Below, piece after piece: positions 3,741 through 24,950 of a DNA stretch of 36,648 bases (the first letter of the stretch is position 1; each line of letters begins with the position of its first letter). Both the position numbers and the translations under genes were made by a program. This DNA comes from a virus. The notes beneath the pieces are model-generated. The model had not been told where the DNA came from and made no database searches. It was given only the letters and a program-made list of their open reading frames with translations. Where the stretch lies: IMG/VR virus record IMGVR_UViG_3300009537_002297, positions 1-36,648 of that record, one strand, 5' to 3'.

Positions 3741-5054
3741 ATGAGAGAAATAAATAAAACTAAATATGGTCATAAATATGAATTATATTTAGTTATGATT
3801 CTTAAAGATGAAGAAAAATCTATTGAAGAAACTATTTTGGCATTTCATGACAAAGGCGATGGTCCAATATATGATCATCTTATGGTTGAGATTGATGATA
3901 GCACAACAGATAAGACTGAAGAAATCGTAAGAAAATATACAGATGATATTAAATTTTTTACATGGGAAGAAAATTTTGCAAAGCATAGAAATGATTTAAT
4001 AGATAGGATACCAATTGGTGTTTATACGATGTTTCCGGATGGACACGAAGTTATGAGACCTAATGGAATCAATGTCTTGCATAAATTCCTTCAAGATCCG
4101 CCAACTGAAATTAATGCATACGCTCCTTATATAGAAATAGATTGTGATGAATATGATATTCCTGATGTAGTTTTCCCAAGACCAATATTCTTTAAAAATA
4201 CAGGCAAGGTAAAATTTCATAGAGGTGTTCATAATCATTTACTTGATGGAGATGACAAGCCAATAAGAAAATTCTCTTATATTTCTTTTAAGCATAATAT
4301 GCACCCAAAACGTAAAAAGATGAGAAAAGAAATGAGAGCGGATATGAATGTTAGAAAGCTTTTGGAAACTACAAAAACTAATCCTGATGACGCAAGAGAT
4401 TTATTTTATCTTGGTGATGCGTATGATGAGAGAGGTGATGTCAAAAAAGCTTTGGAATACTATGAAAAGGCTTTTAAATTAACTGATAAATATGATACAG
4501 ATCTTGCTGCTCAAATTTGTATATGTGCATTAAATGCTAATAATAAGATAGCAAATTATGGTGATGACGCTACTAAATGGGCATTTAGAGGTATGAGGAA
4601 TAGATGGGATAGAGCGGAACTTTATTATTTTTTAGGATTATTACTTTCTAAAAATAAAAAAGATGAACAAGCTATACATTGGTATAAAATAGCAACAACA
4701 TTAAGATTACCAAATTCAGCTTATTTTTTAATGGGTAAAGTTTATTCATGGTTTCCTTATGATGGATTAATGCTTTCTTATAATAATATAGGTGATTTGG
4801 AAAACTCTTTATTATCGGCAAAGAAAATTCTTGAATGGAAAAAGAATAAGGTAACTGGAGAATTTTGCCCTATAGTTATGAAAAATATAAAAAATATTGA
4901 AGAAGGAATAATTAACGCAAAAAGAGATGAAAAAGCTAGACAGATAATGGCTGACAATCAAGAATTAATTGATGAAGCTTCAGGGCAAGTTAAAAAAGAA
5001 AAAGAAAAATTGCTTGCTGAAGTAAAAAAAGTTGAAGAAATGGAAGTTGTATGA
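3741..5054 (+). CDS. Family 2 glycosyltransferase with C-terminal TPR repeats
   Basis: This probably transfers a sugar from a nucleotide donor. The GT-A domain (about 15-200) has the opening VMILKDEEKSIEETI, the acidic EIDDSTTDKTEEIV and the metal-site region MFPDGHEV (98-104), where the usual DxD-type acid is replaced by His. TPR units follow, for example DDARDLFYLGDAYDERGD then ALEYYEKAF around 217-245, and another near 290-320. The C terminus is a Lys/Glu coiled coil. GT2-TPR fusions are known as protein or surface-polysaccharide glycosyltransferases, and the TPRs may bind the acceptor protein. The start follows GAGG. It is the first gene after the capsid terminator. Confidence 0.85.
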   Translation: MREINKTKYGHKYELYLVMILKDEEKSIEETILAFHDKGDGPIYDHLMVEIDDSTTDKTEEIVRKYTDDIKFFTWEENFAKHRNDLIDRIPIGVYTMFPDGHEVMRPNGINVLHKFLQDPPTEINAYAPYIEIDCDEYDIPDVVFPRPIFFKNTGKVKFHRGVHNHLLDGDDKPIRKFSYISFKHNMHPKRKKMRKEMRADMNVRKLLETTKTNPDDARDLFYLGDAYDERGDVKKALEYYEKAFKLTDKYDTDLAAQICICALNANNKIANYGDDATKWAFRGMRNRWDRAELYYFLGLLLSKNKKDEQAIHWYKIATTLRLPNSAYFLMGKVYSWFPYDGLMLSYNNIGDLENSLLSAKKILEWKKNKVTGEFCPIVMKNIKNIEEGIINAKRDEKARQIMADNQELIDEASGQVKKEKEKLLAEVKKVEEMEVV

Positions 5055-5117
5055 AAAGGTTTTATTTATTTTTGAGAACTATTGTGTAAATTATAATAAT
5101 TATTATGGAGAGATAAA

Positions 5118-5453
5118 ATGAGTGAAGAAAAAAGTAAAATGGTTAGCCTTCAATTTCATGGATGCGATTCAGGATATAAACTTCGTTACAACAGTCATAG
5201 GCGTGGAGAGATTCTTGATTATCCTGAAGAAAAGGCAAATCAATTGATGAGAGATTTTCCAGGAGCTTTTACTATTATTGGTGAAAGCAGAAAGCCTAAA
5301 GAAGATAAAAAAATTGAAAAAATTGATGAGAGAAAAGAATTGGCACAGCCTGAAAATAAAATGATAGATATAGCTCCGGAAGATAAGGGTGGAACAGAAA
5401 AGAAAGAATTTAAAAAAGCGGGGAAGGTTCGTAGACGATTAGGAAAAGAATAG
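5118..5453 (+). CDS. Small hypothetical phage protein
   Basis: A 111-residue protein. Residues 1-55 look like a small beta domain (MVSLQFHGC, YNSHRRGEILDYPEEKA, FPGAFTII) of the kind found in small head or tail proteins that end '..A..L...GaaeiI'. Residues 56-111 are a highly charged Lys/Glu-rich tail ending KVRRRLGKE. The architecture, compact N-terminal domain plus charged tail, is the same as that of the 93-residue protein at 16133, although the sequences differ. TGGAGAG precedes the ATG. The function is unknown; a virion role is a guess. Confidence 0.55.
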   Translation: MSEEKSKMVSLQFHGCDSGYKLRYNSHRRGEILDYPEEKANQLMRDFPGAFTIIGESRKPKEDKKIEKIDERKELAQPENKMIDIAPEDKGGTEKKEFKKAGKVRRRLGKE

Positions 5454-5510: not shown

Positions 5511-6461
5511 ATGGGTAAGAGTATCGTTTTATCGTTTAGTAACGGTTTGGGAAATTTCATCCTCTTGTCTCCAACTATTGCCGCATTACAGGATAACGGT
5601 TGGGATGTTGATATCTTACTTGGCTCGCATTCCTCTGATGCCAGAAGAAAAGAATTAGAAATCATAATAAACAGTTATGATCGTAGTATTGGATTCTATG
5701 ATAAGTTCAAAAAATATGATGAGGCTTTTTATGTATGGGGCGAACCAAGAGAAGTTCCTGAAGATATTCATTGGAAAATAAATAAAGAAGCAAAAAAACC
5801 TGTTAAATATTTTTTGGATGGTATGCATGAAGTTCAATTAAATTTTAAAATAGCTGAATATTTAGGGGCTGATAATCAGTCTATTTCTAAACTTTACTGC
5901 CCTAAAAATGTATTTAGTGACGGTAGATTTGATTCAAGAAAAATAAATGTAGGCATCCATATAGGTTCAAGACCGGAAATTTGGTGGCAGAAAAAACGAT
6001 GGAATAATCAATATTGGATAGATTTGATGGCAATGATGACTGAATCTTATCAAAATATTGACTTTCATCTTTTTGCTAGCGAATGGGAAAAAGATGATTG
6101 TGATGTTATTTTTAAAAAATCAAAATCGTCTATTCATACTTATTCCCATCTTAATCTTACAGAAGTAGCTTATTTAATATCTCGCTGTAATTTAATGATA
6201 ACAACTGATTCTGTACCTCTTCATATAGCAGCCGCTGTAGAGACTCCAGTTCTTCAATTGTTTGGATGCACAATACCAAGTAAGAATAGTGCATGGAAAG
6301 CTAAAGGTGAAGTTATTATGTCTGATCTGGATTGTCAACCATGTCTTTATCAGATGAATTTTAAAAGCTGCACTAGTAATATATGTATGGATAAAATACT
6401 GCCAGAAATGGTACTTGAAAAGGTTTTTGATTGGATGCCTGTTGAAGCTAATGCCGTTTGA
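5511..6461 (+). CDS. Family 9 glycosyltransferase (heptosyltransferase-like)
   Basis: A GT-B enzyme of the ADP-heptose:LPS heptosyltransferase group. The N-terminal nucleotide-fold start is SIVLSFSNGLGNFILLSPTI. The C-terminal donor site shows the family signature TTDSVPLHIAAAVETPVLQLFG (within about 231-254), followed by a DLDCQPCLYQ...C cysteine segment common in this family. The length of 316 residues is normal. In bacteria such enzymes build lipopolysaccharide core; here the acceptor could be a virion glycan or host surface sugar. GGAGG lies 10 nt upstream. The 3' end runs to the start of the next glycosyltransferase. Confidence 0.88.
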   Translation: MGKSIVLSFSNGLGNFILLSPTIAALQDNGWDVDILLGSHSSDARRKELEIIINSYDRSIGFYDKFKKYDEAFYVWGEPREVPEDIHWKINKEAKKPVKYFLDGMHEVQLNFKIAEYLGADNQSISKLYCPKNVFSDGRFDSRKINVGIHIGSRPEIWWQKKRWNNQYWIDLMAMMTESYQNIDFHLFASEWEKDDCDVIFKKSKSSIHTYSHLNLTEVAYLISRCNLMITTDSVPLHIAAAVETPVLQLFGCTIPSKNSAWKAKGEVIMSDLDCQPCLYQMNFKSCTSNICMDKILPEMVLEKVFDWMPVEANAV

Positions 6462-6465: not shown

Positions 6466-7374
6466 ATGAGACTAAATTTAATTGCTCCTGTTTATAATAA
6501 TTCTCCATTTGGCAATGAAAACCGCTTGGTTAATTGGCTAAACAATACAAAAGAAGGAAGAGATTTTGATATAGATTTAACGATAACTGATTTAAGATTT
6601 GAGCAAAATAATCTTTCAAACTTATCAGGAAAATATGATGCCACATTGGTAATAAAAGGTGAAATGTTATCACCGGAACAAATAAAATATTGTTCTTCTC
6701 CTAAGATACTTTATTTTCCAGATGACATTATAGTTTATAAAGGATATAGAGATTATATTAAATTAGTCGGTTCTTCTTATGATTGGGTTTATACATTTGA
6801 TAAGTTTGCAATACCTGAATTTAAGAAATGCGGATGCAAAGATGTAAGATGGTTGCCAAGCTGGACAGGAGTTGATTTTTTTAATCGTAGGTTTATTGAA
6901 AGAGATTTTGATATTTGCTTTATTGGCAGTATTAATGAACAGCGTCAAGAGATGTTAGATAAAGTTACTCAGGTTTTTTTTGATAAAAATTTATATTTTA
7001 AAAAAAATGTTTATGGGAATGATTATGTTTATCTATTGAATAAATCAAAAATAGTTTTAAACTTGGCACAAGGTAAAACAGGAACTTCCCAGCGTGTTTT
7101 TGAAGCAGCAGCTTGTGAAGCTATGGTTTTAACAAATTGGATAGATGAAAGTGAACAATTATATGAAGGTGATAAAGAGGTTGTTTATTGGAATGATCTT
7201 GATGAGCTTATTCAGAAATTAGAGTTGTATTTAAACTCTGAAGATAAAAGGAAATCAATAGCAAATGCTGGTTTTATAAGAACTATAAAAGATCATTTAG
7301 CTGGAAATAGATTTAAAGTTATTTTTGATGATATTAAGAACTTTAATAATGATTTATACAAATTGCTTGCTTGA
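6466..7374 (+). CDS. CgeB-like glycosyltransferase
   Basis: The protein (302 residues from ATG 6466) has the layout of CgeB/glycosyl transferase 1_2 proteins: an N-terminal Rossmann half with ILYFPDDI, a middle YDWVYTFDKF and WLPSWTGVD, then DICFIGSINEQRQEML opening the C-terminal half and QRVFEAAACEAMVLTN near the donor site. ATG 6466 begins the expected first strand (MRLNLIAPVYN). Upstream in-frame ATGs at 6451 and 6415 would overlap the GT9 gene. A second paralogue lies at 9881. It probably adds one sugar to the same glycan; the acceptor is unknown. Confidence 0.82.
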   Translation: MRLNLIAPVYNNSPFGNENRLVNWLNNTKEGRDFDIDLTITDLRFEQNNLSNLSGKYDATLVIKGEMLSPEQIKYCSSPKILYFPDDIIVYKGYRDYIKLVGSSYDWVYTFDKFAIPEFKKCGCKDVRWLPSWTGVDFFNRRFIERDFDICFIGSINEQRQEMLDKVTQVFFDKNLYFKKNVYGNDYVYLLNKSKIVLNLAQGKTGTSQRVFEAAACEAMVLTNWIDESEQLYEGDKEVVYWNDLDELIQKLELYLNSEDKRKSIANAGFIRTIKDHLAGNRFKVIFDDIKNFNNDLYKLLA

Positions 7375-7398: not shown

Positions 7399-8604
7399 AT
7401 GCGAATAGCCTTAATTAATCTTCCATCTCCATTCCTTATTTCTGATAAAGTGTTTCCTCCATTAGGGATTCTTTATATAGCTTCCGCATTACGAGATAAT
7501 GATTATGATGTTAAATTTTATGATTTTGCCGGAAAAAAATTAACTGAAGTTGAAGAAGATACAGTTTTTATAACCATAACTTCTCCGCAGATAAGAATAG
7601 CAATAGATTATGTTAAACAATATTGTAAAGGTAAAAAGACTGTAATAGGCGGGTGCGGAGTAGATAGTTTAAGCGAAGTAGATAAATCTTATTTTACTAT
7701 GATAGTAAAAGGAGAAGCAGAGAATTGCGTAAATGATATTATGAATAAATTGAGCAATTCTTCTGGTAAATATTTATTATATAATTCTACTTCATTTTCT
7801 GATATTGAGTTAGTATCTTTCCCAGCAAGAAGTTTAATTAACGGATATGAGTATAGGATAAATGGGAGGAATACAACTACAATGATTACTTCAAGAGGGT
7901 GTCCGTATTCATGTATTTATTGCATTTCTGGAAATTCTAAAAAACTTAGAATTGCATCTGCTGATAGAGTGTGTGAAGAAATAGATGAAATTTATAATTT
8001 AGATTATGAAGGGTTAATGATTTTTGATGATATTTTTACTTTAAACAAACAGAGATTGAAAATAATAGGCAGTCATATTAAAAGAAAAAATATGGTGTAT
8101 AGATGTTTTTCACATGTACGGTTTGTTGATGAAGAATTATGTGAAATACTTAGTAATACAAATTGTAAAGAAGTGGGAATAGGGATTGAATCAGGAAGCA
8201 ATAAAATTTTAAAAACAATTAAAAAAGGGTTTACAAGAGATCAAAGTATTAAAGCTGTTACATTGTTAAAAAGTTATGGTGTAAGAGTAAAAACTTTTTT
8301 TATGATAGGGCTTCCTGGAGAAGATGATGTTTCTATAGTTGATACAAAGTTTTGGGTAGAAGAAGTTAAACCGGATGATATAGATTTTAGTATTTATAGC
8401 CCATATCCAGAAACAGAAATATGGAATAATAAAAAGAATTATGATATTAGATGGAATGGAGGCGATCCAGTAGCTTTTAAAGGTAGGTTCGGAAAATATT
8501 CTACAAATATTTCTACTTCAAAATTAACAAGCAGTGAGTTGATAAAATACAGAGATCAATTAGAATCTGTTTACAAACACGCATCGAAAAGCCCCTGTCT
8601 TTAG
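7399..8604 (+). CDS. Radical SAM enzyme with B12-binding-like N-terminal domain
   Basis: The N-terminal ~130 residues (MRIALINLPSPF, FPPLGILYIASAL, VIGGCG) match the cobalamin-binding-like domain that precedes the radical SAM barrel in class B methylases and oxidoreductases. The iron-sulfur motif is RGCPYSCIYC with Cys168, Cys172 and Cys175. GIESGSNKILKTIKKG and FFMIGLPGEDD are further family motifs. The length of 401 residues is normal. Such enzymes methylate unreactive carbons or rearrange sugars and lipids; here a modified sugar is plausible. AAAGGAG lies upstream. The stop codon lies inside the hairpin at 8592-8612, so the last few residues (SKSPCL) are encoded by that repeat. Confidence 0.88.
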   Translation: MRIALINLPSPFLISDKVFPPLGILYIASALRDNDYDVKFYDFAGKKLTEVEEDTVFITITSPQIRIAIDYVKQYCKGKKTVIGGCGVDSLSEVDKSYFTMIVKGEAENCVNDIMNKLSNSSGKYLLYNSTSFSDIELVSFPARSLINGYEYRINGRNTTTMITSRGCPYSCIYCISGNSKKLRIASADRVCEEIDEIYNLDYEGLMIFDDIFTLNKQRLKIIGSHIKRKNMVYRCFSHVRFVDEELCEILSNTNCKEVGIGIESGSNKILKTIKKGFTRDQSIKAVTLLKSYGVRVKTFFMIGLPGEDDVSIVDTKFWVEEVKPDDIDFSIYSPYPETEIWNNKKNYDIRWNGGDPVAFKGRFGKYSTNISTSKLTSSELIKYRDQLESVYKHASKSPCL

Positions 8605-9165: not shown

Positions 9166-9879
9166 ATGGAAATACAACATTATTTACCGTCGAGAAATTG
9201 GTGTAGGAAAAATAAATCTTTAATCGAGCAAATGAGTGATTATCCAAAGTTAAGAACGGATAATACTCGGCTTTGGGAATATCCATTTGTTTATAATATT
9301 CTTAAAGAAAGAGTGTCAAAAAAAACTAATATAATAGATATAGGTGCTGGTGATTGCGCCTTTTCTAATTTTTTAAAAAATAACGAATATGGTGTCACTT
9401 GTGTAGATAATTATAATACTGCTTGCTGGAGCGATATGAAAAAAGCTTCTGCTTTTATTGGTGTGGCAGTCGTTAATAATAATTGTACTGAATTAGAGTT
9501 CACAGATAATCAATTTGATGCGGCTTTATTGGTGAGTGTGATTGAGCATGTTCCATCAAATATGATTTTTGAGCATAAGACAGGAAAATTAAAAAAAGGG
9601 GATGAAGTTGATAGAGAATACCCAATAAGAAAAAAAGTAATCAGTGAAGCTTTAAGGGTGATTAAAAAGGGAGGATTACTGATTCTTACTACTGACATGT
9701 ATTTAGATTTTCCTAAAGAAGCTAATTTATCTTTTGAAAAATTAATGGATTATAAAGGTCTTGAAATGAGTGATATTCATTCTTTAAGTGATGATGTCAA
9801 AAATGATTTGTATATTGTAGATAACCCTTTGCATAAGGGGCGGGTGTTATCTTTTTGTGTAGTTGTAAAAAAGGAATAA
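9166..9879 (+). CDS. SAM-dependent methyltransferase (class I)
   Basis: A 237-residue Rossmann methyltransferase of the Methyltransf_11 type. Motif I is IIDIGAGDCAFSNF (about 57-70), the acidic strand-2 end is VTCVDNYN, motif post-I/IV is FDAALLVSVIEHV (about 118-130), and GGLLILTTDMY is the following strand. The substrate is not evident, but the neighbours suggest O- or N-methylation of a sugar. The next gene starts 1 nt after the stop, so the two are probably co-translated. The start lacks a strong Shine-Dalgarno; AAGAAGAAAG is the nearest purine run. Confidence 0.82.
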   Translation: MEIQHYLPSRNWCRKNKSLIEQMSDYPKLRTDNTRLWEYPFVYNILKERVSKKTNIIDIGAGDCAFSNFLKNNEYGVTCVDNYNTACWSDMKKASAFIGVAVVNNNCTELEFTDNQFDAALLVSVIEHVPSNMIFEHKTGKLKKGDEVDREYPIRKKVISEALRVIKKGGLLILTTDMYLDFPKEANLSFEKLMDYKGLEMSDIHSLSDDVKNDLYIVDNPLHKGRVLSFCVVVKKE

Positions 9880-9880
9880 T

Positions 9881-10849
9881 ATGAAAAAATTAAGAATATT
9901 TTCAGCTATCCAATTTTTCAATTGGGAGTGTGAAAATTTGGTTAAGCCATTACGAGATATGGGGCATGAAGTTATTAATTGGGATTTTAGAGGTGATGGT
10001 TACAATCAATATTCGCATGATTGGGAAACTTGCAAGAAAAAAGAGATGAATGATGAATTATTAAAGCGTGTCAGTAAAGCCCATGCGGAAAAGCAATTAG
10101 ATTTATTTTTTGGATATTTATCAGACCCTGTAATAAGTGTTGATTCTATGATGGAATTGAAATCGTATCAAATTCCACTAGTCAATTTTTCTTGTAATGA
10201 TGTCAATAGCTTTGAAAGAGGGTTAAGCCGTATTTCACCATTTTTTGATTTAACCTGGACAACAAATAGAAAGGCTTTAAAAAATTATCAATCAGTTAAT
10301 GCTAAAGCTAAATTTATTCCATTTGGTGTAAATCCCAATTTTTACAAACTTCTTGATTATAAAGAATTACCTAAATTTGCTTATGATGTTAGTTTTATCG
10401 GACAGCCATACGGTTATAGGTTACCAATGATTATAACTTTAATAAATAAAGGTTTGAGTTATGGTATATTTGGCAAAACAAGTTATAAACGATTAATAAG
10501 AACTATTCTTGAGACAAGAGTATGTTTGAATTTTTTAGGGTTGCCAGAAGCTGATTTTAATAATCATGAAATGAAACAATTACGATTAAGAGATTTTGAA
10601 GTAACTGCGCTTGGTGGTTTATTATTAACAGAGAGAATTCCAGAAATTCAGGAATTATTTGAAGATAGGAAAGAGGTTCTTATGTATAATTCTGTTGATG
10701 AATTTATTGATCTTGCTATTTATTATTCAAGGTATAAAAATAGAAAAGAAAGACTTGAAATATCAAGAGCTGGCAAGAAAAAATGCTTGAATGAATATAC
10801 TTGGGATAATCATTTCAATACTATTTTTAGGGAAATGAAATTAGCATGA
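9881..10849 (+). CDS. CgeB-like glycosyltransferase, second copy
   Basis: A 322-residue GT-B protein of the CgeB/glycosyl transferase 1_2 type. Its N-terminal half starts LRIFSAIQFFNWECENLVKP and contains LDLFFGYLSD and FDLTWTTNRKALKNY. The C-terminal half starts YDVSFIGQPYGYRLPMI and ends with RDFEVTALGGLLLTERIPEI plus a TWDNHFNTIF helix, all family hallmarks. It differs markedly from the copy at 6466, so this is not a recent duplication. AAGGAATAAT precedes the ATG. The end overlaps the next start by ATGA. Confidence 0.85.
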   Translation: MKKLRIFSAIQFFNWECENLVKPLRDMGHEVINWDFRGDGYNQYSHDWETCKKKEMNDELLKRVSKAHAEKQLDLFFGYLSDPVISVDSMMELKSYQIPLVNFSCNDVNSFERGLSRISPFFDLTWTTNRKALKNYQSVNAKAKFIPFGVNPNFYKLLDYKELPKFAYDVSFIGQPYGYRLPMIITLINKGLSYGIFGKTSYKRLIRTILETRVCLNFLGLPEADFNNHEMKQLRLRDFEVTALGGLLLTERIPEIQELFEDRKEVLMYNSVDEFIDLAIYYSRYKNRKERLEISRAGKKKCLNEYTWDNHFNTIFREMKLA

Positions 10850-11478
10850 GAAAAACTTGCTTGCATTTAGGTTGTGGGAAAGTTTATCTTAAAAGTAATA
10901 ATGCTGTAAAATGGATAAATATTGATTTTGAGCAAAAAGGAAGTTTAAAGCTATCTAATTTTTCTAATGAGCAGCAAGAGGATTTTATAAAAAGAAATGG
11001 AACTATTTTCCATAAATATTATAAATTTAGCCCTAGTGATTATGCAAATTTGCCAATTATTGTAGACAAATTTGATGACGCAAGAGAATTAAAATCTTGT
11101 GAAGAAAATAGTATAGAAGAAATTGTTGCTTTTCATATACTTGAACATTTTACTTATGAAGATGGTTTAAAGGCATTAAAAAGATGGTCAAGTTTATTAG
11201 TAAAAAAAGGGAAACTTCATTTAATGGTTCCTGATGTAAAAGAAATTTGTGCAAGGATAATTGGAAATAGAAGTACCGGTTATTATAGTGATGAACATTG
11301 TTACAGATTATTGTATGGGAGCAATAACAGAAATGCTTTTTTAGACGGGCATTCTTCTGGTTATTCTGTTGAAATGATAGCAAGAATACTGCAAAATTTA
11401 AATATGACATGGGAAGTTCACGATACATTTACTGATAATAAATTCAATCCATCTATTTACATAATTGGGGGGAGGTAA
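10846..11478 (+). CDS. SAM-dependent methyltransferase, second copy
   Basis: A 210-residue class I methyltransferase. Motif I is LHLGCGKVYL (6-15), followed by WINIDFE at strand 2 and SIEEIVAFHILEHF (about 88-101) in the motif IV region, then LLVKKGKLHLMVPDV. This subgroup usually occurs in glycan and surface-sugar clusters. It overlaps the upstream glycosyltransferase by 4 nt and the downstream epimerase by 1 nt (TAATG), so translation of the three is coupled. The methyl acceptor is unknown. Confidence 0.82.
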   Translation: MRKTCLHLGCGKVYLKSNNAVKWINIDFEQKGSLKLSNFSNEQQEDFIKRNGTIFHKYYKFSPSDYANLPIIVDKFDDARELKSCEENSIEEIVAFHILEHFTYEDGLKALKRWSSLLVKKGKLHLMVPDVKEICARIIGNRSTGYYSDEHCYRLLYGSNNRNAFLDGHSSGYSVEMIARILQNLNMTWEVHDTFTDNKFNPSIYIIGGR

Positions 11479-12431
11479 TGATTGATTTAAAAAAGAAACG
11501 TTTTATTATTTTTGGTTCTTCAGGGTTTCTGGGTCAAAATTTGATAGAAGAATTTAAAAAAAGAGATTTAACTTATATTGGGTTATCTTCTAATGATATA
11601 GATTTGATTACTGAATCTAATGATTATTATTTATTTAAATCTATCTTTATAAATAAAGATTGTATTGTTATTAATTTAGCGGCTAATTGCGGCGGGATTG
11701 GTTATAACCAAAAGAATCCTGTAAATTTATTTACAGATAATATGAATATTATAATGAATGTTTTTAAGATTTGTCATAATAATAAAGTTGAAAAACTTAT
11801 CAATGTCGGCACAGTTTGTTCTTATCCTATAACACCGTCTATCCCATTCAAAGAAGAAGAAATTTGGGACGGTTATCCAGAACCTACTAATGCTCCTTAT
11901 GGGATAGCTAAAAAATGTAGTTTGGTATTGTCAGAATGTTTTAAAAAACAATATGGATTAAATAGTATTAATTTGATGTTGGCAAATATGTATGGAGAAT
12001 TTGATCATTTCGGTTCTGAAAAGGGTCATGTGATACCGGATTTAATTAATAAATTTATTGAAGCTAAAAATACTAATAGTAAATCTGTTATGTTATGGGG
12101 GACAGGAAAAGCTACAAGAGATTTTCTTTATGCTAAAGATGCTGTTAATATTTTATTAAAAATAATTGAATTTGATTATAATAAAGTATGTCCAGTAAAT
12201 ATAGGGACAGGGCTTGAGTTATCAATAGCTACTTTAGCTGTGATGATAAAAAATAAAATAGGGTTTGAAGGTGATATTTGGTGGGATGGTTCTAAACCAA
12301 ATGGTCAGCCTAAAAGGGTTTTAGATATAACAAAATTAGAATCTATAATCGGGAAGTATGAGTTTACTTCTATTTATGATGGAATTAATAAAACTATAGA
12401 TTGGTATTTGGAAAAAATTAAAGGAGATTGA
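11478..12431 (+). CDS. NAD(P)-dependent sugar epimerase, GDP-L-fucose synthase-like
   Basis: A 317-residue extended short-chain dehydrogenase. The nucleotide site is FGSSGFLG (12-19). The catalytic set is Ser115 (GTVCSYP), Tyr141 and Lys145 (YGIAK). NMYGEFDHFGSEKGHVIPDLI and WGTGKATRDFLYAKDA are characteristic of the GDP-fucose synthase (WcaG/Fcl) branch, where the enzyme turns GDP-4-keto-6-deoxymannose into GDP-fucose. No GDP-mannose dehydratase is visible in this window, so the substrate may come from the host. It supplies an activated sugar to the surrounding glycosyltransferases. The start is coupled to the upstream gene. Confidence 0.87.
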   Translation: MIDLKKKRFIIFGSSGFLGQNLIEEFKKRDLTYIGLSSNDIDLITESNDYYLFKSIFINKDCIVINLAANCGGIGYNQKNPVNLFTDNMNIIMNVFKICHNNKVEKLINVGTVCSYPITPSIPFKEEEIWDGYPEPTNAPYGIAKKCSLVLSECFKKQYGLNSINLMLANMYGEFDHFGSEKGHVIPDLINKFIEAKNTNSKSVMLWGTGKATRDFLYAKDAVNILLKIIEFDYNKVCPVNIGTGLELSIATLAVMIKNKIGFEGDIWWDGSKPNGQPKRVLDITKLESIIGKYEFTSIYDGINKTIDWYLEKIKGD

Positions 12432-12432
12432 T

Positions 12433-13068
12433 ATGGCTGTTGTAGCTTCTGCACAATTTTTAATATCTATGACAGATTTAAAACTTCATCTTGACATAGG
12501 CACAACTGGTCAGGATGGATGGTTAGATAAGGCTTTAGCATCTACAACTAAAAGAATAGAAACTTATTGCAATCGGCATTTTGCTTCTGCTGGATATACA
12601 GAATACGCTGATGGTGTTAATAAAGGATTTTTGCATGTTAAAAATCCGCCAATCATCAACGTATCAGCTTTAAATTCGGATGTTAATAGGGATTTTGGTT
12701 CTGCAACAGAATATGCTACTAATGCGTATATTACTTATGATGATGATGGTAGGATAGAGTTATTAAGTATAGCTGATGTAACTAGTTCATCATTATCTCC
12801 TGTTGTCTTTCCGTCTGGTCAGCAAAATATAAAAATAGTTTACACTGGAGGATATGCCGCTATACCAGAAGATGTTAGGTTAGGGTGTGCCGAGTGGATT
12901 GGTAGAATATATAAAAGAAGAACAAGGAAAAGATGGAATATAGAAGGTGCTGCAAAAGGTGATAAAACAATATCTTATGAAACTTTTGGTGCGATGCCTC
13001 TTGAGGTAAAAGATTTTATTCATCCTTATAGATTAATACCTGCCGGAAGATCAAGGAGACTTAGATGA
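12433..13068 (+). CDS. Head-tail connector (HK97 gp6-like)
   Basis: A 211-residue protein of the phage gp6-like connector family, which forms the ring below the portal. The helix opening TDLKLHLDIGTTGQDGWLDKAL and ASTTKRIETYCNRHF is the family signature for the N-terminal helical part. A beta-rich middle follows, then IVYTGGYAAIPEDVRLGCAEW, typical of the C-terminal part. The C terminus is basic (RSRRLR). AAGGAG from the epimerase 3' end serves as ribosome site, and the gene overlaps the next by 4 nt. It resumes the structural genes after the sugar block. Confidence 0.85.
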   Translation: MAVVASAQFLISMTDLKLHLDIGTTGQDGWLDKALASTTKRIETYCNRHFASAGYTEYADGVNKGFLHVKNPPIINVSALNSDVNRDFGSATEYATNAYITYDDDGRIELLSIADVTSSSLSPVVFPSGQQNIKIVYTGGYAAIPEDVRLGCAEWIGRIYKRRTRKRWNIEGAAKGDKTISYETFGAMPLEVKDFIHPYRLIPAGRSRRLR

Positions 13069-13586: not shown

Positions 13587-13600
13587 ATTAGAGGTTTATA

Positions 13601-15115: not shown

Positions 15116-16051
15116 GTGAGGTTAAGATTTAAAGAGTTTCAGTATTTTTCATCGGAAGCAATGGGTTTTTCTAATGGTCAAAGGCAAATTAGAAAAGCTC
15201 TTGAAAGGCAAGGGGTCAATATTGTCCATAATGCGGAAACTGAATTACAGCATTTATCTTCTCATTTATATAGTAAAAATTGCAAAAGAAGCTTTATTAT
15301 GCCGACTCATGAAGCTGACAATATACCTGCATCACTTATAGATAAAATAAATGAAGCTGATGAAGTGATAGCGGTTTGTGAGCATAACAAGAAAGTATTT
15401 AAAGATAATGGTGTTACTAAAAAAATACACTTATGCAATCAAGGAATAGATTTGGATATTTTTAAATATACAGAGCATATAAGAAAAGATACTTTGAATT
15501 TTTTATGGGTAGGTCAAACATCTATAAGAAAAGGCTGGGATTTGGTTATTTCTGCCTTTAACAAAGCATTTGGAAATATGAAAGATGTAAGGCTTTATAT
15601 GAAAACAAATGGTAAAGGGCAACAAGAAATAATTGATATTAATAATAATATTGTATTTGATTCAAGGAATTTAGCTCTTGCTGATATGCTTGATTTATAC
15701 AGAGATAATCATATTTTTCTCTTTCCAAGTCGTGGCGAAGCAACAGGCTTGCCTTGTATTGAATCAATGGCTTCCGGAATGATTTGTTTAGCTCCTTCCA
15801 TTGGTGGTATGAAAGAATTTATTGATGACTATTCTGCTATACCTTTGGAATATGATATGGTAGATGCTAATTATGGTGTTAAAATTAAAGTTCCTAATGT
15901 TAAAATTTCTGATTTTGTAGATAAACTGCGTTATGTTTATGATTGGTATGATGACATTATAGATCATTCTAAGATAGTTAGAAAAATAATAGAAGATAAA
16001 TGCGACATAAATTCTATGGCGCAAAAACTTGTTAAAATTATTTTTACTTGA
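15116..16051 (+). CDS. Family 4 glycosyltransferase
   Basis: A 311-residue GT-B enzyme. The C-terminal half starts LNFLWVGQTSIRKGWDLVISAF, and FPSRGEATGLPCIESMASGM contains the E-x7-E donor motif, followed by APSIGGMKEFI. The N-terminal half contains GFSNGQRQIRKALERQGVNIV and EVIAVCEHNKKVF. The GTG start has no near Shine-Dalgarno; an in-frame ATG at 15159 would remove the first strand LRFKEFQYF, so GTG is kept with caution. The hairpin just upstream may control translation. It is separated from the preceding glycosyltransferase by hairpins, suggesting separate insertion. Confidence 0.87.
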   Translation: MRLRFKEFQYFSSEAMGFSNGQRQIRKALERQGVNIVHNAETELQHLSSHLYSKNCKRSFIMPTHEADNIPASLIDKINEADEVIAVCEHNKKVFKDNGVTKKIHLCNQGIDLDIFKYTEHIRKDTLNFLWVGQTSIRKGWDLVISAFNKAFGNMKDVRLYMKTNGKGQQEIIDINNNIVFDSRNLALADMLDLYRDNHIFLFPSRGEATGLPCIESMASGMICLAPSIGGMKEFIDDYSAIPLEYDMVDANYGVKIKVPNVKISDFVDKLRYVYDWYDDIIDHSKIVRKIIEDKCDINSMAQKLVKIIFT

Positions 16052-16061
16052 TGATTTTCGC

Positions 16062-16477: not shown

Positions 16478-17608
16478 ATGGTAATTTCCAGAGGATACCT
16501 CGCCAAAAGTGGGGTAAAAAAATCAAGTGTTTGGGGCACTGCTGTAGATTGTAATGTTGCTGGAGCAGGTTTAAATATTTTAAATGAGAGCTTGGTGGTT
16601 AATCCAAACTTATTGGAAGATGAAACTTTAACAGGTACGGCAGATCAAGGTGTCGGTGTAACTTCGAGCACAACTGTTACAGGCGGCATAGAAACAAATT
16701 TGCAGTATAGCAATCCTGTTTTAATGACTTTAATTGCCATGTGTATGGGTAGAGCTGATACTCCTCTTGCGCCTCTTGGATCGAGTTATGCCAAAGCTCC
16801 GTATGCTTATTATATGAGTATGAGACTTGGAGATAATGTAGAGGGATATTTTGCAACTATGTGTTTTGACAAGATGCAGGATAGTTCTACTATACATGAA
16901 TTTGATTCGGTTAAGGTTAATGGTATGACAATTTCTGGTGCTGCTGGAGAATATGTCAAGATAGCTTTTGATTTGATTGGAAGAAGTCAGGCTACTTCTG
17001 GGACAACTACTACATCTTTATCAGCCGCAACAACCTCTTCGCCAATAAAGTATGTCAGGTTTGAAGATTTAGATTTTAGATTAAGTACACAGGATGACAC
17101 AGCATTAGATCAGGCAGATCAATTTTATCCAACAAGTTTTACTATTACACTAAATAATAACTTAGTTGGAGATTTGACTTCTTTAAATGCTCCATATATT
17201 GATGAGCCTATCAGAGATGCCGCAAGGTCTATTGAAGGTTCAGTTGAGATTCCTAAACTTACTGAATCTAATACTGAAACAAGATTCTTGGCGGGTACTG
17301 TAATGAAAATGTCTATCAGAGCAAGGTCTACTACACAGATACCTGCTGCTGGCGGCGGCCCATATTACTATGGATTTGAAATGTACATGCCAGCTGTACA
17401 GCTTACTGAAGCTTCAAGAAGTATAACAGGTTTCGCCAAAACCGGAGCACCATTTTCATTTGTTGCTAAAAAAGCTACTTCTGCACCTGATGGGATGGAT
17501 GGTAATGGTAATCTTGATACATTAACTAATGATGAAGCAAGAGGGTCATTTACAGAAAGCCTTAGGATAGAAGTTTGTTCATTAATAAAAACTAATCCAT
17601 TAGCATAA
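16478..17608 (+). CDS. Major tail tube protein
   Basis: A 376-residue protein rich in Ser, Thr, Gly and beta strands. Its order before the tail assembly chaperones and tape measure is diagnostic. Supporting segments are GYLAKSGVKKSSVWGTAVDCN at the start, GVGVTSSTTVTGGIETNLQY, a repeated pattern where IKYVRFEDLDFRLSTQ introduces a second half, and FYPTSFTITLNNNLVGD. Two similar halves suggest a duplicated tube fold. AAAAGGAG is 5 nt upstream. It would polymerise into the long non-contractile tail tube. Confidence 0.82.
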   Translation: MVISRGYLAKSGVKKSSVWGTAVDCNVAGAGLNILNESLVVNPNLLEDETLTGTADQGVGVTSSTTVTGGIETNLQYSNPVLMTLIAMCMGRADTPLAPLGSSYAKAPYAYYMSMRLGDNVEGYFATMCFDKMQDSSTIHEFDSVKVNGMTISGAAGEYVKIAFDLIGRSQATSGTTTTSLSAATTSSPIKYVRFEDLDFRLSTQDDTALDQADQFYPTSFTITLNNNLVGDLTSLNAPYIDEPIRDAARSIEGSVEIPKLTESNTETRFLAGTVMKMSIRARSTTQIPAAGGGPYYYGFEMYMPAVQLTEASRSITGFAKTGAPFSFVAKKATSAPDGMDGNGNLDTLTNDEARGSFTESLRIEVCSLIKTNPLA

Positions 17609-17622
17609 GTAATTATAGTAGT

Positions 17623-17648: not shown

Positions 17649-17705
17649 GTATAGGGCGTGTCAATAAGCCTATTGGAATAAAAAAAATATTGTGGAGGAT
17701 AATTT

Positions 17706-18496: not shown

Positions 18497-21400
18497 ATGG
18501 CTGTAGTAAAGCTTGATGTAATAGCTGAATCAAAAAAAGCTATTAGTGGAATTAATAAATTTGTCAAATCTCTCGACAAAATAAAAAAATCTTCAGAGAC
18601 AATCACAAAAAGCCTACAAAGACAAAATGCCGCTTTAAATAAATTAACAAAACGTATTAATTCTACTGGCCGTTCTACTCAAGCTTTTAGCCATAGATCA
18701 AAAACTGCAACTAAAACAATAACTGCACAAACCGTACAAACTGCTTCTCTTGGCAAAGTAACGCATGGTCTAAGATCAGCTCTGGAGGCTTTAGGGGCAA
18801 CTTTAGCAGTAATGACTACAAGATTTGGCTTGCTTGCTACAAGCACAAAAGGATGGGCAATTATATTATCAGCAATAGCGAGTGCCACTATCATTGGATC
18901 TGTTGTAAAAGGAGCTGTTAATCTTGAAGATCAGATGTTAGCTGTCAGAAAAACAACAGGTTTAGTTTCTATAGAAATGAAAAAATTAACTAAAAATTTT
19001 ATTGATATGTCTAAAGAAATTCCTTTAAGTACAGAAGAATTAGCACAAATTGGTGCTGTAGCTGGTCAAATTGGTATAAGGGGTACAAAAAATATATCTG
19101 AGTTTACTAGGGTAATTTCTATGATGGCTACTGTTACAGATTTGGCGGCAGAAGAAGCTGCTATAGCAATTTCTCAATTATCAAATGTATTCAGAATACC
19201 AATACCTGATGTTGAACGTCTTGGTTCTGTTATAAATGAATTAAGTAATACTACAGCAGCAACAGCAAGAGATTTAGCTATAATTGCTAAGCAGGCAGGT
19301 TCTGCAGCAACAGTTTTTGGGCTTACTGCTTCACAAACATTAGCTTTTGCGGCAGTACTTAGAGATATTGGTGTTACATCTGAAGTTGCAGGGACAGCTC
19401 TTAGCCAATTATTTACGAAATTAGTTACTAACACAAAAAGAATAGCAAGGTCTGCAGAAATAGATTTTACAACTTTAAGTAATGCTGTTAAAAATGAACC
19501 AGTTAAAGCTGTTCAGATGTTATTTGATAAACTTTCAAAATTAAGTAAAACAGAAGCTGCTTCAGCATTAAAAAAAATGGGATTCGAAGGTAAAAGAGCA
19601 ACAAGTGTTATGTTTGGGCTTATGAACAATACAAGTTTACTTAATAAAACCTTAAAAACAGCAGAAGGAGAGTGGGAAACAAATACTTCTTTAATGAAAG
19701 AATTTAGTATATTTACTTCTGGTGTCAAAAGGCAATTTATATTATTCAAAAATGAAATATCTGCTGTAGCTATAACTTTAGGTACAAATTTTTTGCCAAT
19801 ATTTCAAAAAGTAATTACAGAAATAAAAGGAAGTTTAGTGCCAGCTCTTGGTAGTGCTGCAAAAGTAGTAAAAGAAAATCAAAAAAGTATATCAGATTTT
19901 CTTGTAAATACTCTAATTACAATTAAAACAGTCTTTAAAACACTTTATATTGCGCTAACAGGGGCAAATTCTGCTGCAATAGTATTAGGAAAAACATTAC
20001 TTACACTTTGGGTTTTAGGTAGAATTAAGATGTATGCGGCTATTCTTACTACTATGACTACAAGTATGAACTTAATAGCTAGTAGCCCTATTCTTGGTTT
20101 TTTTTCAAAATTAAATCTTATGTATACAACTACAACTAAAAGAGCGAATCAACTTAATTTAGCTTTAACAAAAACAAGTAAAAATGCAAGAACTGCGTTT
20201 ATTGGGTTTATGTCTCTTGCTAATGCATTAAATTTATTGTTTGCAGGCTTTGTAGGGTTTCAAATTGGAACTTGGATTGAAAAATGGGATAAGGTTAAAC
20301 TAGTCGCACTAGCAACAATTGGTGCTTTGGGAAAAGGTTTTTATAGCCTTAAAGATATTTGGGCTCAAGTAACAGGAACAATGCAGATTATCTGGTATAA
20401 AATGTTAGGAAGTATAAGTGAAAAATTGGAAGATAGCTTTATAAAAAAATTTATAGATAAGTTTAAAAGTATACCACAATTTGTTTTGCGAAATCTCTCG
20501 CCAGCATTAGCTGATTTAGTTCTTGCTTTTGGAGGCACAGAAAATGCTACAAATAATTATAATGATGCGATAGCAGAACTTGAAAAAAAGATGAGTTCAT
20601 CGACAGAAGAATTAAAGAAAAATAAAAAAATTGTTGATGAAACTATTGTGTCATTGTTTAATGATATTCAAGTAACAAGAAAATTAGGAGAAGAAACAGT
20701 AACATTAGCAAAATTAAAAACTAAACTTGCTGGGATGACAGTTAAAACAGTACAAGAACTTACAGATACATGGGAAAGATATCGAAAAGATTACAAAGGT
20801 AATGTAGAAGCGATTGCTTTGATAGATAAAACATTTTCTGAATTAAAAATAAAATTAACACGAAAAGAAATGGAAGAAAAATTAAAAGCGGATGAAGAAC
20901 GTCTTACCAAAACTCTTTCTAATAATAATGTAGAATTATCTAATTTTAAAGAAACTATAGAAGTGATGAGTAAATTTAACGAGAATTATTATAAAAAAAG
21001 ATTAATTGGAAATATTGACACTTTAGAAAGTTTAGTTTTTTCAGAAAATGAATTTAAAAAATTAATAAAAGATAATGCTGATTATAAAGTAATAGTTGAA
21101 GATTTTTATTATGCAAAACGTATTGAACTTGCAAAGAAATCTTTAGAAGCTATTAGTAGCTTAGCTGATAAAAGTACTAAAATAACTGTTCATGGTTTAA
21201 AATTACAATTAGAATCTGTTAAAGGTAATGCTGCGGAAAGAGAAAGAGTAGGCAGACAATTGGTTGCTGCTGTTGAAAAAAATAGTAATAGTGAATTGAT
21301 TAACATCACTAAACACTATAAAAACGTAATAGGCGTGCATGGAATGTATAGTACAGAAACTATAGAAGCCACACAAAATATGATTATGATAATAAATGCT

Positions 21401-24184
21401 TTAAATGAAAAAGCTGCTGCTGATAAAGCGGCAATAATAAGATTTATCGCTAATTTTGAAATAAAACAGCAGAAAAAAATCCTTAAAGAAATATTTAAAG
21501 GAAATGAAGCTAAGCTGAAATCGGAACAAGATTATCTTAAAAATATAATAAAGGATAATAGTGAGAATTTGTCAAAAAGACTTACTGCTAATAAAAAATT
21601 TATATCTAATATCAAAAAATTAGCTGATCTTAGGGAAAAATATGAAAAAGATATAATAGAAGTAATAAAAGGGCATTGGAAAGGTAGTCAAGAAGATCTT
21701 ATAAAATTAGTAAACGCTTTTCAGGAAAAAATTAAAGCTATAAGGCAAGAAGAAGTGAAAGATGTGGAAGAAGCTGAAAATCAAAAATTGAAATTGACTC
21801 AGGAGTTTGTTTCTAATATCGGAAAATTATTTGGAAGTGTGGGTGGAAAGTGGGCAGGTGTAGTGAATGCCATGTTAGTTGCATTTCAAGAATTTACAAG
21901 AAGTAGTGCAAAAGCTGGTTCTACTATGGCAGGTTCTTTAGGTAATGCCTTTGGTGCTCTTGGTGTGGCTCTTAGCGGAATTACCGGTTCAACAGGTGCT
22001 TTTGGATCCGCTATTGGTGCAGTAAGTAAAGTTGCTGGAGCTTATACTACTGTTCAAACAGGTATGACTAATGCTATAGCCGCAGCTAATAAAGCGGCGT
22101 TAGCTGGTAGTACGACGGCGGCAAGTTTGGCAAGCGGATTAACATCAATATCAACAGTAGCTCCGTATGCGGCAGCAGCGATTGCAGCTGGAACTATAGC
22201 TTATAAAGCTTTTTCAAAAGCAAATAGGTCAGCAGCAGAAAAATTAGGTATTACTAAAAAAGGTATTGAAGGGGTTAGTCAAGCTATAGGGGTAAGCATA
22301 ACAGAACTTGGTAAATGGAGGATGGGAATACTTGATACAACTATGAATATCGGCGTTGCGTTAAAAGCTATAGGTGAATTAGCTAATGAAACTGTTAATT
22401 TAACTAAAATCCTTGGCGGTAGTAGTGGCGCAACAAATGCAGTAATATCATTATCAGATGCCGCTTATGGGTTAGGTCTTGCCTATCAGAACCTTGCATT
22501 AAGTCAATTACAAGTAGAAATTACTTCTGGAACACTTAAAGAAGAAACTATAAATTTAGAAAATGCCACAAATATTTTAACTCAGGAATCTTTAAATTAT
22601 GAGGAGGCACTTCAGAATTTAGCTAGGCAGCAGGTAATAACAAATGAGGCAATGGCGGCGCATGAAGCTGCTTTGAATAGTGTTACTATCGCAAATCAAG
22701 CTGTAACTCAAGAATCTATTCATTTTGGCAATGCTCTTAGAACATTGTCAGCAGAAGCAGCTATAAATGGAGGTCAAACAGCAAAATTATATAAAGAATT
22801 TACAGCATTAAGAGACCATCTTATTGCTTCTACCATATCTTCTGAAGCTTTTCAAAAAGCTACAAAAGATTTAACTTTGGCTCAAAAAATACAAGCGGAA
22901 GCTTCTGTTAAACAGCGGTTAGGTTTGGATAACTTATCAATCGCCACAGGGGAATACGAGAAAACACTTATGACGCTTATTGCAACTACAGGGTTAAGTG
23001 CTGAAGAGCAAGGGGAATTAATCCAGCAATTAATAAGATCTAAAGGTAATGTAGAAGTTTTATCTTCTAAAACCGCAAGATATAATGAAGTTTTAAAACA
23101 AATGGGCATAGAAGCAGCAAAAGGGAATGCTCCGGCATTAGCTAAACTTGCGAATGAAGCAAGAGCATTGCGGACAGAATTAGGATTAGGAACAACTACT
23201 TATGAAAAAAATACAAAAAGTATAAATAACAATACAAATTCTCTTGCCAACAATAGTAGTCAAGCATTAATAATAAATGAGAGTATGACAACTTTGAATA
23301 CTTCTATAGGTGAATTAACAGAAGCTTTACTTGCAATAAATGAAATAAAATTAAATAATAAAACTTTTTCTGTAACTCAAATTAATAAAACCGCATCTCC
23401 TACGGCATCATCTTCACCAGCAGCTAAATCATCTCAATCTGCTATGAGTATGAGTAGTAGTTTGATCGGAGGGTTACAACAATTAAATGCTTATCAGATA
23501 CAAGATAAAACATATACTGTTACCCAAGTAAATAAAACAGTTGCTACTTCAGGGTTTCCAAGTAGCGGAGTTGCTACTGGCTCTGGAAGTCCAGCTTTAA
23601 CAAGTGCCAAAACCAAATTATCTTCTCAACTGATAGGAATATTAAGTGGAAGAGGCTATGCAGGGAATCAGCTTAATATGTTTATGAATCAAATAAGAAG
23701 AGTTTCCGCTTTAGGAAATCAAACAAAAAGCTATTATGAACTTTTAGAAAAATTAACAAGTGACCCAACATTGTCAATAGAGGAAACAGGAAGCCTAATC
23801 ACTCAATTGAGAGGATTATTTAGGAATTTAGGTCTTGGTACTAAATCTGTAGCACACTCATCTATGTCGTCATATGATGGAGGCACTTCATTTGTTCCGA
23901 AAAACACAATTGCATCAATTCATCGTGGAGAAAGAGTTGTACCAGCATCAGAAAATAAAGTATTAACAGAATTTTTAAATCAAATAAAACCATTTTTATC
24001 TAAAAAAGGTACAACAGGTACAGGCGGTGGGAATGTTACAGTCAAAGTAGAAAATTTATTTGCTAAAGATTTAAATTCTTTGATAGATGAGATTAATGAA
24101 GATAATAGAAGAAGAGATGTTGGCGAATTTAATGTGTTTGTGGAAAAGCAAAATAAATCTAACTTAAACCTTATGGACGCATAG
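18497..24184 (+). CDS. Tail tape measure protein
   Basis: A 1895-residue protein, the longest in the window. Residues 1-70 are a coiled coil, and about 95-145 are hydrophobic. About 145-430 match the TP901-type tape measure core (NLEDQMLAVRKTTGLVS, MSKEIPLSTEELAQIGAVAGQ, AKQAGSAATVFGLTASQT, EVAGTALSQLFTKL). Long Lys/Glu helices span about 690-1110, a Gly/Ala-rich hydrophobic part about 1110-1240, and Asn/Gln/Ser-rich repeats follow. SYDGGTSFVPKNTIASIHRGERVV near 1795 is a C-terminal motif frequent in tape measures. It sets tail length and may help DNA cross the cell envelope. At about 1.5 angstroms per residue the tail would be near 280 nm, an inference. Confidence 0.95.
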   Translation: MAVVKLDVIAESKKAISGINKFVKSLDKIKKSSETITKSLQRQNAALNKLTKRINSTGRSTQAFSHRSKTATKTITAQTVQTASLGKVTHGLRSALEALGATLAVMTTRFGLLATSTKGWAIILSAIASATIIGSVVKGAVNLEDQMLAVRKTTGLVSIEMKKLTKNFIDMSKEIPLSTEELAQIGAVAGQIGIRGTKNISEFTRVISMMATVTDLAAEEAAIAISQLSNVFRIPIPDVERLGSVINELSNTTAATARDLAIIAKQAGSAATVFGLTASQTLAFAAVLRDIGVTSEVAGTALSQLFTKLVTNTKRIARSAEIDFTTLSNAVKNEPVKAVQMLFDKLSKLSKTEAASALKKMGFEGKRATSVMFGLMNNTSLLNKTLKTAEGEWETNTSLMKEFSIFTSGVKRQFILFKNEISAVAITLGTNFLPIFQKVITEIKGSLVPALGSAAKVVKENQKSISDFLVNTLITIKTVFKTLYIALTGANSAAIVLGKTLLTLWVLGRIKMYAAILTTMTTSMNLIASSPILGFFSKLNLMYTTTTKRANQLNLALTKTSKNARTAFIGFMSLANALNLLFAGFVGFQIGTWIEKWDKVKLVALATIGALGKGFYSLKDIWAQVTGTMQIIWYKMLGSISEKLEDSFIKKFIDKFKSIPQFVLRNLSPALADLVLAFGGTENATNNYNDAIAELEKKMSSSTEELKKNKKIVDETIVSLFNDIQVTRKLGEETVTLAKLKTKLAGMTVKTVQELTDTWERYRKDYKGNVEAIALIDKTFSELKIKLTRKEMEEKLKADEERLTKTLSNNNVELSNFKETIEVMSKFNENYYKKRLIGNIDTLESLVFSENEFKKLIKDNADYKVIVEDFYYAKRIELAKKSLEAISSLADKSTKITVHGLKLQLESVKGNAAERERVGRQLVAAVEKNSNSELINITKHYKNVIGVHGMYSTETIEATQNMIMIINALNEKAAADKAAIIRFIANFEIKQQKKILKEIFKGNEAKLKSEQDYLKNIIKDNSENLSKRLTANKKFISNIKKLADLREKYEKDIIEVIKGHWKGSQEDLIKLVNAFQEKIKAIRQEEVKDVEEAENQKLKLTQEFVSNIGKLFGSVGGKWAGVVNAMLVAFQEFTRSSAKAGSTMAGSLGNAFGALGVALSGITGSTGAFGSAIGAVSKVAGAYTTVQTGMTNAIAAANKAALAGSTTAASLASGLTSISTVAPYAAAAIAAGTIAYKAFSKANRSAAEKLGITKKGIEGVSQAIGVSITELGKWRMGILDTTMNIGVALKAIGELANETVNLTKILGGSSGATNAVISLSDAAYGLGLAYQNLALSQLQVEITSGTLKEETINLENATNILTQESLNYEEALQNLARQQVITNEAMAAHEAALNSVTIANQAVTQESIHFGNALRTLSAEAAINGGQTAKLYKEFTALRDHLIASTISSEAFQKATKDLTLAQKIQAEASVKQRLGLDNLSIATGEYEKTLMTLIATTGLSAEEQGELIQQLIRSKGNVEVLSSKTARYNEVLKQMGIEAAKGNAPALAKLANEARALRTELGLGTTTYEKNTKSINNNTNSLANNSSQALIINESMTTLNTSIGELTEALLAINEIKLNNKTFSVTQINKTASPTASSSPAAKSSQSAMSMSSSLIGGLQQLNAYQIQDKTYTVTQVNKTVATSGFPSSGVATGSGSPALTSAKTKLSSQLIGILSGRGYAGNQLNMFMNQIRRVSALGNQTKSYYELLEKLTSDPTLSIEETGSLITQLRGLFRNLGLGTKSVAHSSMSSYDGGTSFVPKNTIASIHRGERVVPASENKVLTEFLNQIKPFLSKKGTTGTGGGNVTVKVENLFAKDLNSLIDEINEDNRRRDVGEFNVFVEKQNKSNLNLMDA

Positions 24185-24197
24185 AAAAGAGGAATCG

Positions 24198-24950
24198 ATG
24201 AATCCTATTAAAATATTAATTGCAGTGCCTATTTCACCATACGAAAAAATAGAGCCAAATCTTGTTAAATGGCTTTTTAGAAATATAATTCATTTCAATT
24301 ATGAAGATCCTGGAAAAATAAATTTATCGTATGATTTGGTAGAAGGGAAACCAATTGACTCTGTAAGAAACAATATAATGAATAAATTTTTAAAAACTGA
24401 TAATGATTATATACTAACCATCGACAGTGATATTGTTCCGGAAGATAATTGTATTAATACATTGCTTGCATGGAATGTTCCGATTGTCGGAGCAACTTGT
24501 TTTTCCTTTCAATACGGCAGACCTTTTCCTGTCATTTTAAGCAAAGTAAATGGAGGCTATACTGAAACTAAGTTAAATGGTAACAGGCTTCAGAAATGTG
24601 AAGCCACAGGGGCAGCTTGTGTATTAATAAAAAGGGAAGTTATAGAAAATATGAAAAAAGATTTATTGGAAAAAACAGGAAAGACTATGTTTTATGAGAC
24701 CAAATATAATCCTCAAGGAGAAATTGGATGGGGACAAGATTTTATGTTTTGTGAAAATGCTATGAGTATAGGCTATAAAATTTATGTGGATACGGGAATC
24801 ATTTGCGGACATTATGTGTCTCGTTTAGATATAAAGAGAGTTAATGATCTTTTAGTTATGGAGCAAAGAAAAGCAGAAGAAAAGCATCAACAATTTAAAG
24901 CAATAGCGGAGGTGGAGAACGATGGGTCTTCCAATTCTGCTAACAAATAA
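24198..24950 (+). CDS. GT-A glycosyltransferase
   Basis: A 250-residue protein. It starts IKILIAVPISPYEKIEPN, then KPIDSVRNNIMNKFLKTDNDY, and has the metal- and nucleotide-sugar site TIDSDIVPEDN (DSD near residue 76-78). ATGAACVLIKREVIENM and GWGQDFMFCENAMSIGYKIYVDTGI are the acceptor-side motifs seen in the glycosyltransferase 2-like proteins encoded by phages. GAGGAATCG precedes the ATG. It lies immediately after the tape measure gene, and its last 29 nt overlap the next tail gene. It is the fourth separate place where sugar genes interrupt virion genes. Confidence 0.83.
   Translation: MNPIKILIAVPISPYEKIEPNLVKWLFRNIIHFNYEDPGKINLSYDLVEGKPIDSVRNNIMNKFLKTDNDYILTIDSDIVPEDNCINTLLAWNVPIVGATCFSFQYGRPFPVILSKVNGGYTETKLNGNRLQKCEATGAACVLIKREVIENMKKDLLEKTGKTMFYETKYNPQGEIGWGQDFMFCENAMSIGYKIYVDTGIICGHYVSRLDIKRVNDLLVMEQRKAEEKHQQFKAIAEVENDGSSNSANK

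Follow-up and report, generated by a model that had tools for sequence, protein, structure and literature searches.

The virus record IMGVR_UViG_3300009537_002297, analysed here over its whole length of 36,648 bases (the window), is a fragment from an uncultured long-tailed phage. The window contains the late module of this phage, with genes for large BNR and LamG proteins located 3' of the tape measure gene; the G+C content is 28-36% (2 kb windows) and no tRNA gene was found across the 36,648 bases. Between the head and tail genes lie eleven genes of glycan synthesis and modification (Table 1): seven glycosyltransferases (GTs), an epimerase, two methyltransferases and a radical SAM enzyme, all of which had been proposed by the initial annotation and are present, with coordinates exact or within a few codons. 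Their placement 3' of the genes for capsid, tail terminator and tape measure, all on the + strand, was likewise confirmed, with two of the GT calls (14116 and 24198) below threshold.

Table 1. Features of the late module and of the glycan genes threaded through it (positions in the window; orthologs and identities refer to the sister lineage).
Feature	Position	Strand	Evidence
S78 protease	363-1706		Family matches
Major capsid protein, HK97 type, possible acceptor	1765..3267	+	Phage_capsid 1.5e-6; PHROG major head protein 5e-14; 65% identity
94-aa protein, capsid-to-first-GT gap	3345..3629	+	Same slot in G004, L036, L037, L039, 47-49% identity
Terminator-like hairpin before first GT	3656..3693	+	16 pairs and T run; fold z -1.98
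GT2 glycosyltransferase with C-terminal TPR (GT2-TPR)	3741..5054	+	Pfam, E 2e-8; same-slot ortholog 48%
Small protein, conserved slot	5118..5453	+	37% identity to G004 counterpart
GT9, heptosyltransferase-like glycosyltransferase	5511..6461	+	PF01075 1e-21; ortholog 49%
Glyco_trans_1_2 glycosyltransferase	6466..7374	+	PF13524 1e-23; ortholog 52%
Radical SAM enzyme, weak B12-binding-like N-terminal domain	7399..8604	+	PF04055 1.6e-22; CxxxCxxC; orthologs 55-56%
Methyltransferase 1	9166..9879	+	PF08241 1e-10; orthologs 59%
Glyco_trans_1_2 glycosyltransferase	9881..10849	+	PF13524 1e-18; orthologs 57-60%
Methyltransferase 2, HLGCG motif	10846..11478	+	PF13489 8e-5, under cut-off; orthologs 41%
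GDP-fucose-synthase-like epimerase/reductase	11478..12431	+	Pfam 3e-40; YGIAK motif; orthologs 54%
Head-tail adaptor (12433), neck protein (13065), tail terminator (13601)	12433..14101	+	PHROG matches; same-slot orthologs (adaptor 55-57%, terminator 48%)
GT-B type glycosyltransferase, 3' of tail terminator	14116..14964	+	PF00534 (Glycos_transf_1) 4e-5, under cut-off; EX7E; orthologs 48-49%
GT4-type glycosyltransferase, 5' of tail tube	15116..16051	+	7e-12; EX7E motif; orthologs 69%
Tail tube protein, possible acceptor	16478..17608	+	PF18906 4e-20; orthologs 61%
Tail assembly chaperone	17706	+	Family matches; sister ortholog 54%
Tape measure protein	18497..24184	+	PHROG tape measure 6e-48
Probable GT-A type glycosyltransferase, 3' of tape measure	24198..24950	+	PHROG glycosyltransferase 8e-7; DSD motif; same-slot orthologs 60-62%

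Eight of the eleven assignments clear the curated Pfam cut-off. The three that fall under it (methyltransferase 2 and the GTs at 14116 and 24198) all carry fitting motifs, and for both GTs the orthologs give similarly weak family matches: the ortholog of the 14116 enzyme reaches 6e-6 against Glycos_transf_1, also under the cut-off, while the 24198 enzyme, which is the weakest GT call, and its ortholog match Anp1 at 6e-4 and 1.6e-5, both under the cut-off, with the DSD motif conserved. The GT9 enzyme matched the heptosyltransferase II model at 9e-17, which is under the equivalog cut-off. For the GT at 6466, the ATG was taken as the start in preference to a longer TTG frame at 6415 because it matches the start of the protein in a relative. 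No membrane (hydrophobic) segment was predicted in the cassette enzymes at the threshold used. Profile searches of the PDB with the GTs at 9881 and 24198 gave no useful match, and the AlphaFold models obtained for the 24198 GT (pLDDT 36) and for GT2-TPR (pLDDT 53) were too poor for a fold search. The glycan run also contains a gene for an SNase-like nuclease (8687-9136) with an N-terminal hydrophobic stretch.

Relatives were traced by a search with the radical SAM enzyme, which led to two IMG/VR contigs (54% identity), and more were recovered by aligning further proteins, namely the head-tail adaptor, GT4, methyltransferase 1 and GT2-TPR. In the gene maps, all eleven glycan genes have orthologs in this sister lineage, in the same order and in the same slots, which places the arrangement beyond chance. 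This sister set was pieced together from overlapping contigs, each spanning only part of the stretch, and because the contigs are alike among themselves they were counted as one sister lineage and not as many independent ones. The glycan genes are 41-69% identical to their counterparts, a level near that of the structural genes (Table 1), and dN/dS values among the sister contigs are 0.09-0.19 for the glycan genes and 0.02-0.30 for the other genes. Retention of order and slots, structural-like identity and these dN/dS values together indicate that the set belongs stably to the morphogenetic module and is not recent cargo: judged from sequence comparison, the glycan enzymes are kept by selection and inherited together with the virion genes. 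The joint divergence of GT2-TPR and a 99-aa protein in L036 and L039, in which the capsid protein has not diverged, was considered as a case of coevolution and rejected, since the protease diverges too.

Several other features of the relatives were recorded along the way. NUMOD3/HNH endonuclease-like genes occur at many junctions between glycan and tail genes in L002, L003, L004 and L018 (HNH-type insertions, for example, at 1265-1981 and 13107-13973 of L004; two are Pfam-confirmed and the others were recognised by eye), and none was found in the cassette of the window. A DUF3326 protein (1.6e-74) is encoded at 3308-4303 of L004 among the GT genes of the sister's cassette. Finally, the tape measure protein has 1895 amino acids in the window versus about 1063 in the sister contigs (L004 13976-17170), and this gap despite orthologous flanking genes means that tail lengths probably differ greatly.

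The tight spacing of the genes and their common strand had initially been taken to imply late expression. Close spacing is confined to parts of the run (9879-14116, with genes touching or overlapping at 9879-13068), the SNase gene and small genes interrupt the run, and the strong terminator-like hairpin at 3656-3693 splits off the capsid genes. A hairpin of other sequence occupies the same gap in G004, L036, L037 and L039 (z of -3.85 in L037). The argument from strand to late expression must therefore be qualified, since both lineages place a terminator-like hairpin 3' of their capsid genes. Further hairpins occur 3' of the tail tube gene, both in the window and in G001, G002 and G003. Post-tube hairpins are strong in both lineages (window 17609-17705, z -3.77; L004 12312-12373, z -2.10) and mark a second site where a major structural gene stands apart from the genes downstream. 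Promoter-like matches showed no excess over chance. In the scenario that we propose, strong capsid and tube transcripts would be damped before the enzyme genes, which would then be expressed in the same late period at lower levels than the structural proteins.

The enzyme encoded next to the capsid genes, GT2-TPR, was the most informative about a possible acceptor. Its profile retrieved from the PDB only two solved GTs at E<=0.01, SunS (2.8e-8) and GmaR (9.2e-8), whereas the other PDB matches came through the TPR-type repeats, mostly of designed proteins. As in SunS and GmaR, the GT2 domain is followed by TPR, and the sequences are related, although remotely (E 1e-8 to 1e-7). SunS is the peptide S-glycosyltransferase of sublancin, and GmaR a flagellin GlcNAc transferase. 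The substrate of SunS is a precursor peptide (PMC6405829), and the TPR domain of GmaR was proposed to be the part recognising flagellin (PMC9638930). The kinship of GT2-TPR with these two enzymes is a hint, and the strongest biochemical pointer, to a protein acceptor, with the caution that the similarity is remote and that the PDB holds few GT2-TPR proteins. In contrast to SunS and GmaR, no bacteriocin or flagellin gene was seen near GT2-TPR in the window, and its acceptor is putative. A distant homolog (24% identity) is found in Pseudomonas phage PaBG, among head-protease and tail genes.

Candidate acceptors were sought among the proteins of the phage itself. A scan for S/T-rich acceptor sites over about 30 proteins identified no acceptor site; residues 170-189 of the tail tube protein are S/T-enriched (p 0.006 before any correction for the number of proteins), an enrichment that is not conserved. 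The 94-aa protein encoded between the capsid gene and the first GT, for which no family match was found, is a possible decoration protein and candidate glycan acceptor.

Which sugar is made can be approached through the remaining enzymes. The epimerase is a member of the GDP-fucose synthetase family (3e-57), clearly so at the family level only, since it scores 233 bits against a cut-off of 500 for the GDP-L-fucose synthase equivalog, with the YxxxK motif present as YGIAK. The suggestion of B12-radical chemistry survives in its radical half: the enzyme has a radical SAM domain with CxxxCxxC as CPYSCIYC, and its nearest models are PhpK, HpnJ and AprD4, but the match to the B12-binding domain PF02310 (23.7 bits) is under the cut-off of 32.1, and cobalamin use is considered possible. 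Further indications came from G003 (IMGVR_UViG_3300025118_004856), a sister contig of 65 kb in which the GT4 gene is followed by tail, lysis and replication genes and then by a sugar-nucleotide module. This module encodes enzymes of GDP-heptose supply, namely an HddA-like kinase (whose first third lies in frame 5' of the called start), an HddC-like nucleotidyltransferase, for which the best PDB matches are proteins of the 6-deoxy-D-manno-heptose pathway, and a 4,6-dehydratase, for which the best PDB match is a GDP-D-glycero-D-manno-heptose enzyme (3e-69). Judged by best PDB match, G003 thus has the trio of the GDP-6-deoxy-heptose pathway known from Campylobacter and Burkholderia; unlike in these bacteria, the genes are phage-encoded, they are absent from the window fragment and their product is predicted only. 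No sedoheptulose-phosphate isomerase GmhA was recognised by eye among the listed proteins of G003. The module also holds an RmlC-like epimerase, two more epimerases, an FkbM methyltransferase and a second B12-radical SAM protein. Because of the GDP-heptose enzymes of G003 and the GT9 of the window, 6-deoxy-heptose is a reasonable guess for the sugar, plausible with its supply enzymes taken from a sister contig. Two other features of G003 were noticed: a TPP-dependent E1 alpha/beta pair with an HNH gene between its halves among the sugar-nucleotide genes (reversed 41730-44328), and, 3' of the tail genes (reversed 15790-16389), a sulfotransferase-like protein, recognised by eye from an N-terminal P-loop, which could add sulfate to the glycan.

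Gene neighbourhood alone is no proof of the glycan target, and the reading that we favour, with a probability of roughly 0.6, draws on several kinds of evidence. It holds that the genes form one conserved, phage-owned system that builds a methylated sugar, probably of the 6-deoxy kind, step by step onto head and tail proteins of the phage itself. The reaction would take place in the cytoplasm during particle assembly. GT2-TPR would add the first sugar to a head protein, onto which its TPR part would dock it; the remaining GTs would lengthen the glycan, those encoded next to the terminator, tube and tape measure acting on tail proteins. The epimerase would provide a GDP-6-deoxy sugar to be modified by the methyltransferases and perhaps by the radical SAM enzyme, and the probable gain would be shielding of the particle or altered adsorption. 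What speaks for virion glycosylation is that seven GT genes sit in the late, structural region in slots kept across divergent relatives, that they appear to be coinherited with the virion genes, that one GT resembles protein-acting enzymes, that the enzymes are predicted to be soluble, and that mycobacteriophages offer a precedent. A more elaborate arrangement, in which separate GTs have their genes next to those of the subunits that they modify (on the head, tube and tape-measure side) and jointly build a methylated 6-deoxy-heptose-type glycan from phage-made nucleotide sugars, is tentative and on balance rather unlikely.

The initial annotation had weighed decoration of the virion against a change of the host surface. 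Self-decoration emerged as the better supported, but its acceptor is putative and the host-surface alternative, which we judge unlikely, keeps part of its force. In that alternative, the enzymes would act during infection on the LPS core, O-antigen or capsule, and could thereby block re-adsorption of progeny to debris or exclude other phages. GT9 and the 6466 GT are indeed nearest in sequence to LPS and capsule GTs, and distant bacterial relatives of methyltransferase 1 have, at some loci, a GT or epimerase homolog less than 10 kb away. Serotype conversion of the gtr type uses membrane proteins, a flippase and a polytopic glucosyltransferase. The cassette has no membrane GT, flippase or O-acyltransferase, and neither a hydrophobic segment nor a family match to the gtr-type proteins was found in any of its GTs; a flippase is, for its part, not needed for GTs of the LPS core. 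A tyrosine integrase, as lysogenic conversion would use, was not found in six records (the window and relatives, all fragments; controls positive). Coinheritance of the glycan genes in virion-gene slots and the protein-glycosylating type of the post-capsid GT also argue against the host surface, whereas the sugar genes of cyanophages, by analogy, are usually read as host-surface genes (PMC9602691).

Two other explanations fare worse. Loosely held cargo (morons), acquired singly and without shared function, is very improbable: in relatives, the same units are indeed separated by additional genes (HNH endonucleases, DUF3326, a phosphoesterase, further GTs), and their maps show no ortholog of the window's SNase gene, but all eleven glycan genes have kept order and slot over deep divergence under purifying selection. 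That some or all GTs decorate phage DNA carrying hypermodified bases can be given hardly any weight, since, although DNA-glycosylating phage GTs are known (Pyle 2024, as cited in PMC12619734) and DNA methyltransferase-like genes occur on a sister contig, the GTs sit in the virion module and not with replication genes, and a thymidylate-synthase-family gene (base hydroxymethylase) was not found in the window and five relatives (all fragments; controls positive).

Glycosylated virions, sugar pathways in phages and GTs close to structural genes have all been described before. Mycobacteriophages such as Che8 were reported to bear glycans on capsid and tail tube (Freeman 2023, as cited in PMC12619734 and PMC11256854); they share with the window phage-encoded GTs, and the reported targets correspond to the genes flanking the cassette. 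They differ from it in that the window has seven GTs with methyltransferases, radical SAM enzyme and epimerase over several slots, for a glycan predicted from genes; the GT genes of the related phage Maravista are close to the genome's 3' end. The size of the pathway, initially thought unusual, was overstated, since the T4-like cyanophage S-SCSM1 carries 13 cell-wall/sugar genes, annotated as cell-wall/LPS synthesis, with a run of them within ORFs 113-135 (PMC9602691). S-SCSM1 resembles our phage in combining GDP-sugar epimerases, dehydratases and many GTs, but only in the window are the sugar genes threaded between head and tail genes, and it is this conserved threading that is unusual. Streptomyces phages (Stanwilliamsviridae) have GT4-type homologs (about 25-28% identity) near late genes, grouped, unlike in the window, 5' of the portal gene and not between head and tail genes. 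Among 50,697 phage records, no close relative of the capsid protein or methyltransferase 1 was found, and the radical SAM enzyme, head-tail adaptor, GT2-TPR, GT4 and 24198 GT had distant relatives only. We also tried to assign a host through methyltransferase 1 in genome contigs and assigned none, the matches being of 25-30% only and scattered over varied phyla.

A literature search returned no described case of GTs interspersed among structural genes. What is new, with no match in the literature and phage records searched, is a conserved set of eleven genes distributed among several slots of the virion gene order, including a SunS/GmaR-like enzyme encoded 3' of the capsid genes. Glycosylation of virions is documented in few phages. 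With its deep conservation, its protein-type GT beside the capsid genes and the specific sugar predicted for it, the set provides a defined case in which to ask which subunit is modified, with which sugar and to what benefit. It may also suggest a rule for annotation: GTs lodged between virion genes may indicate modification of the virion and not, as they are usually read, of host LPS.
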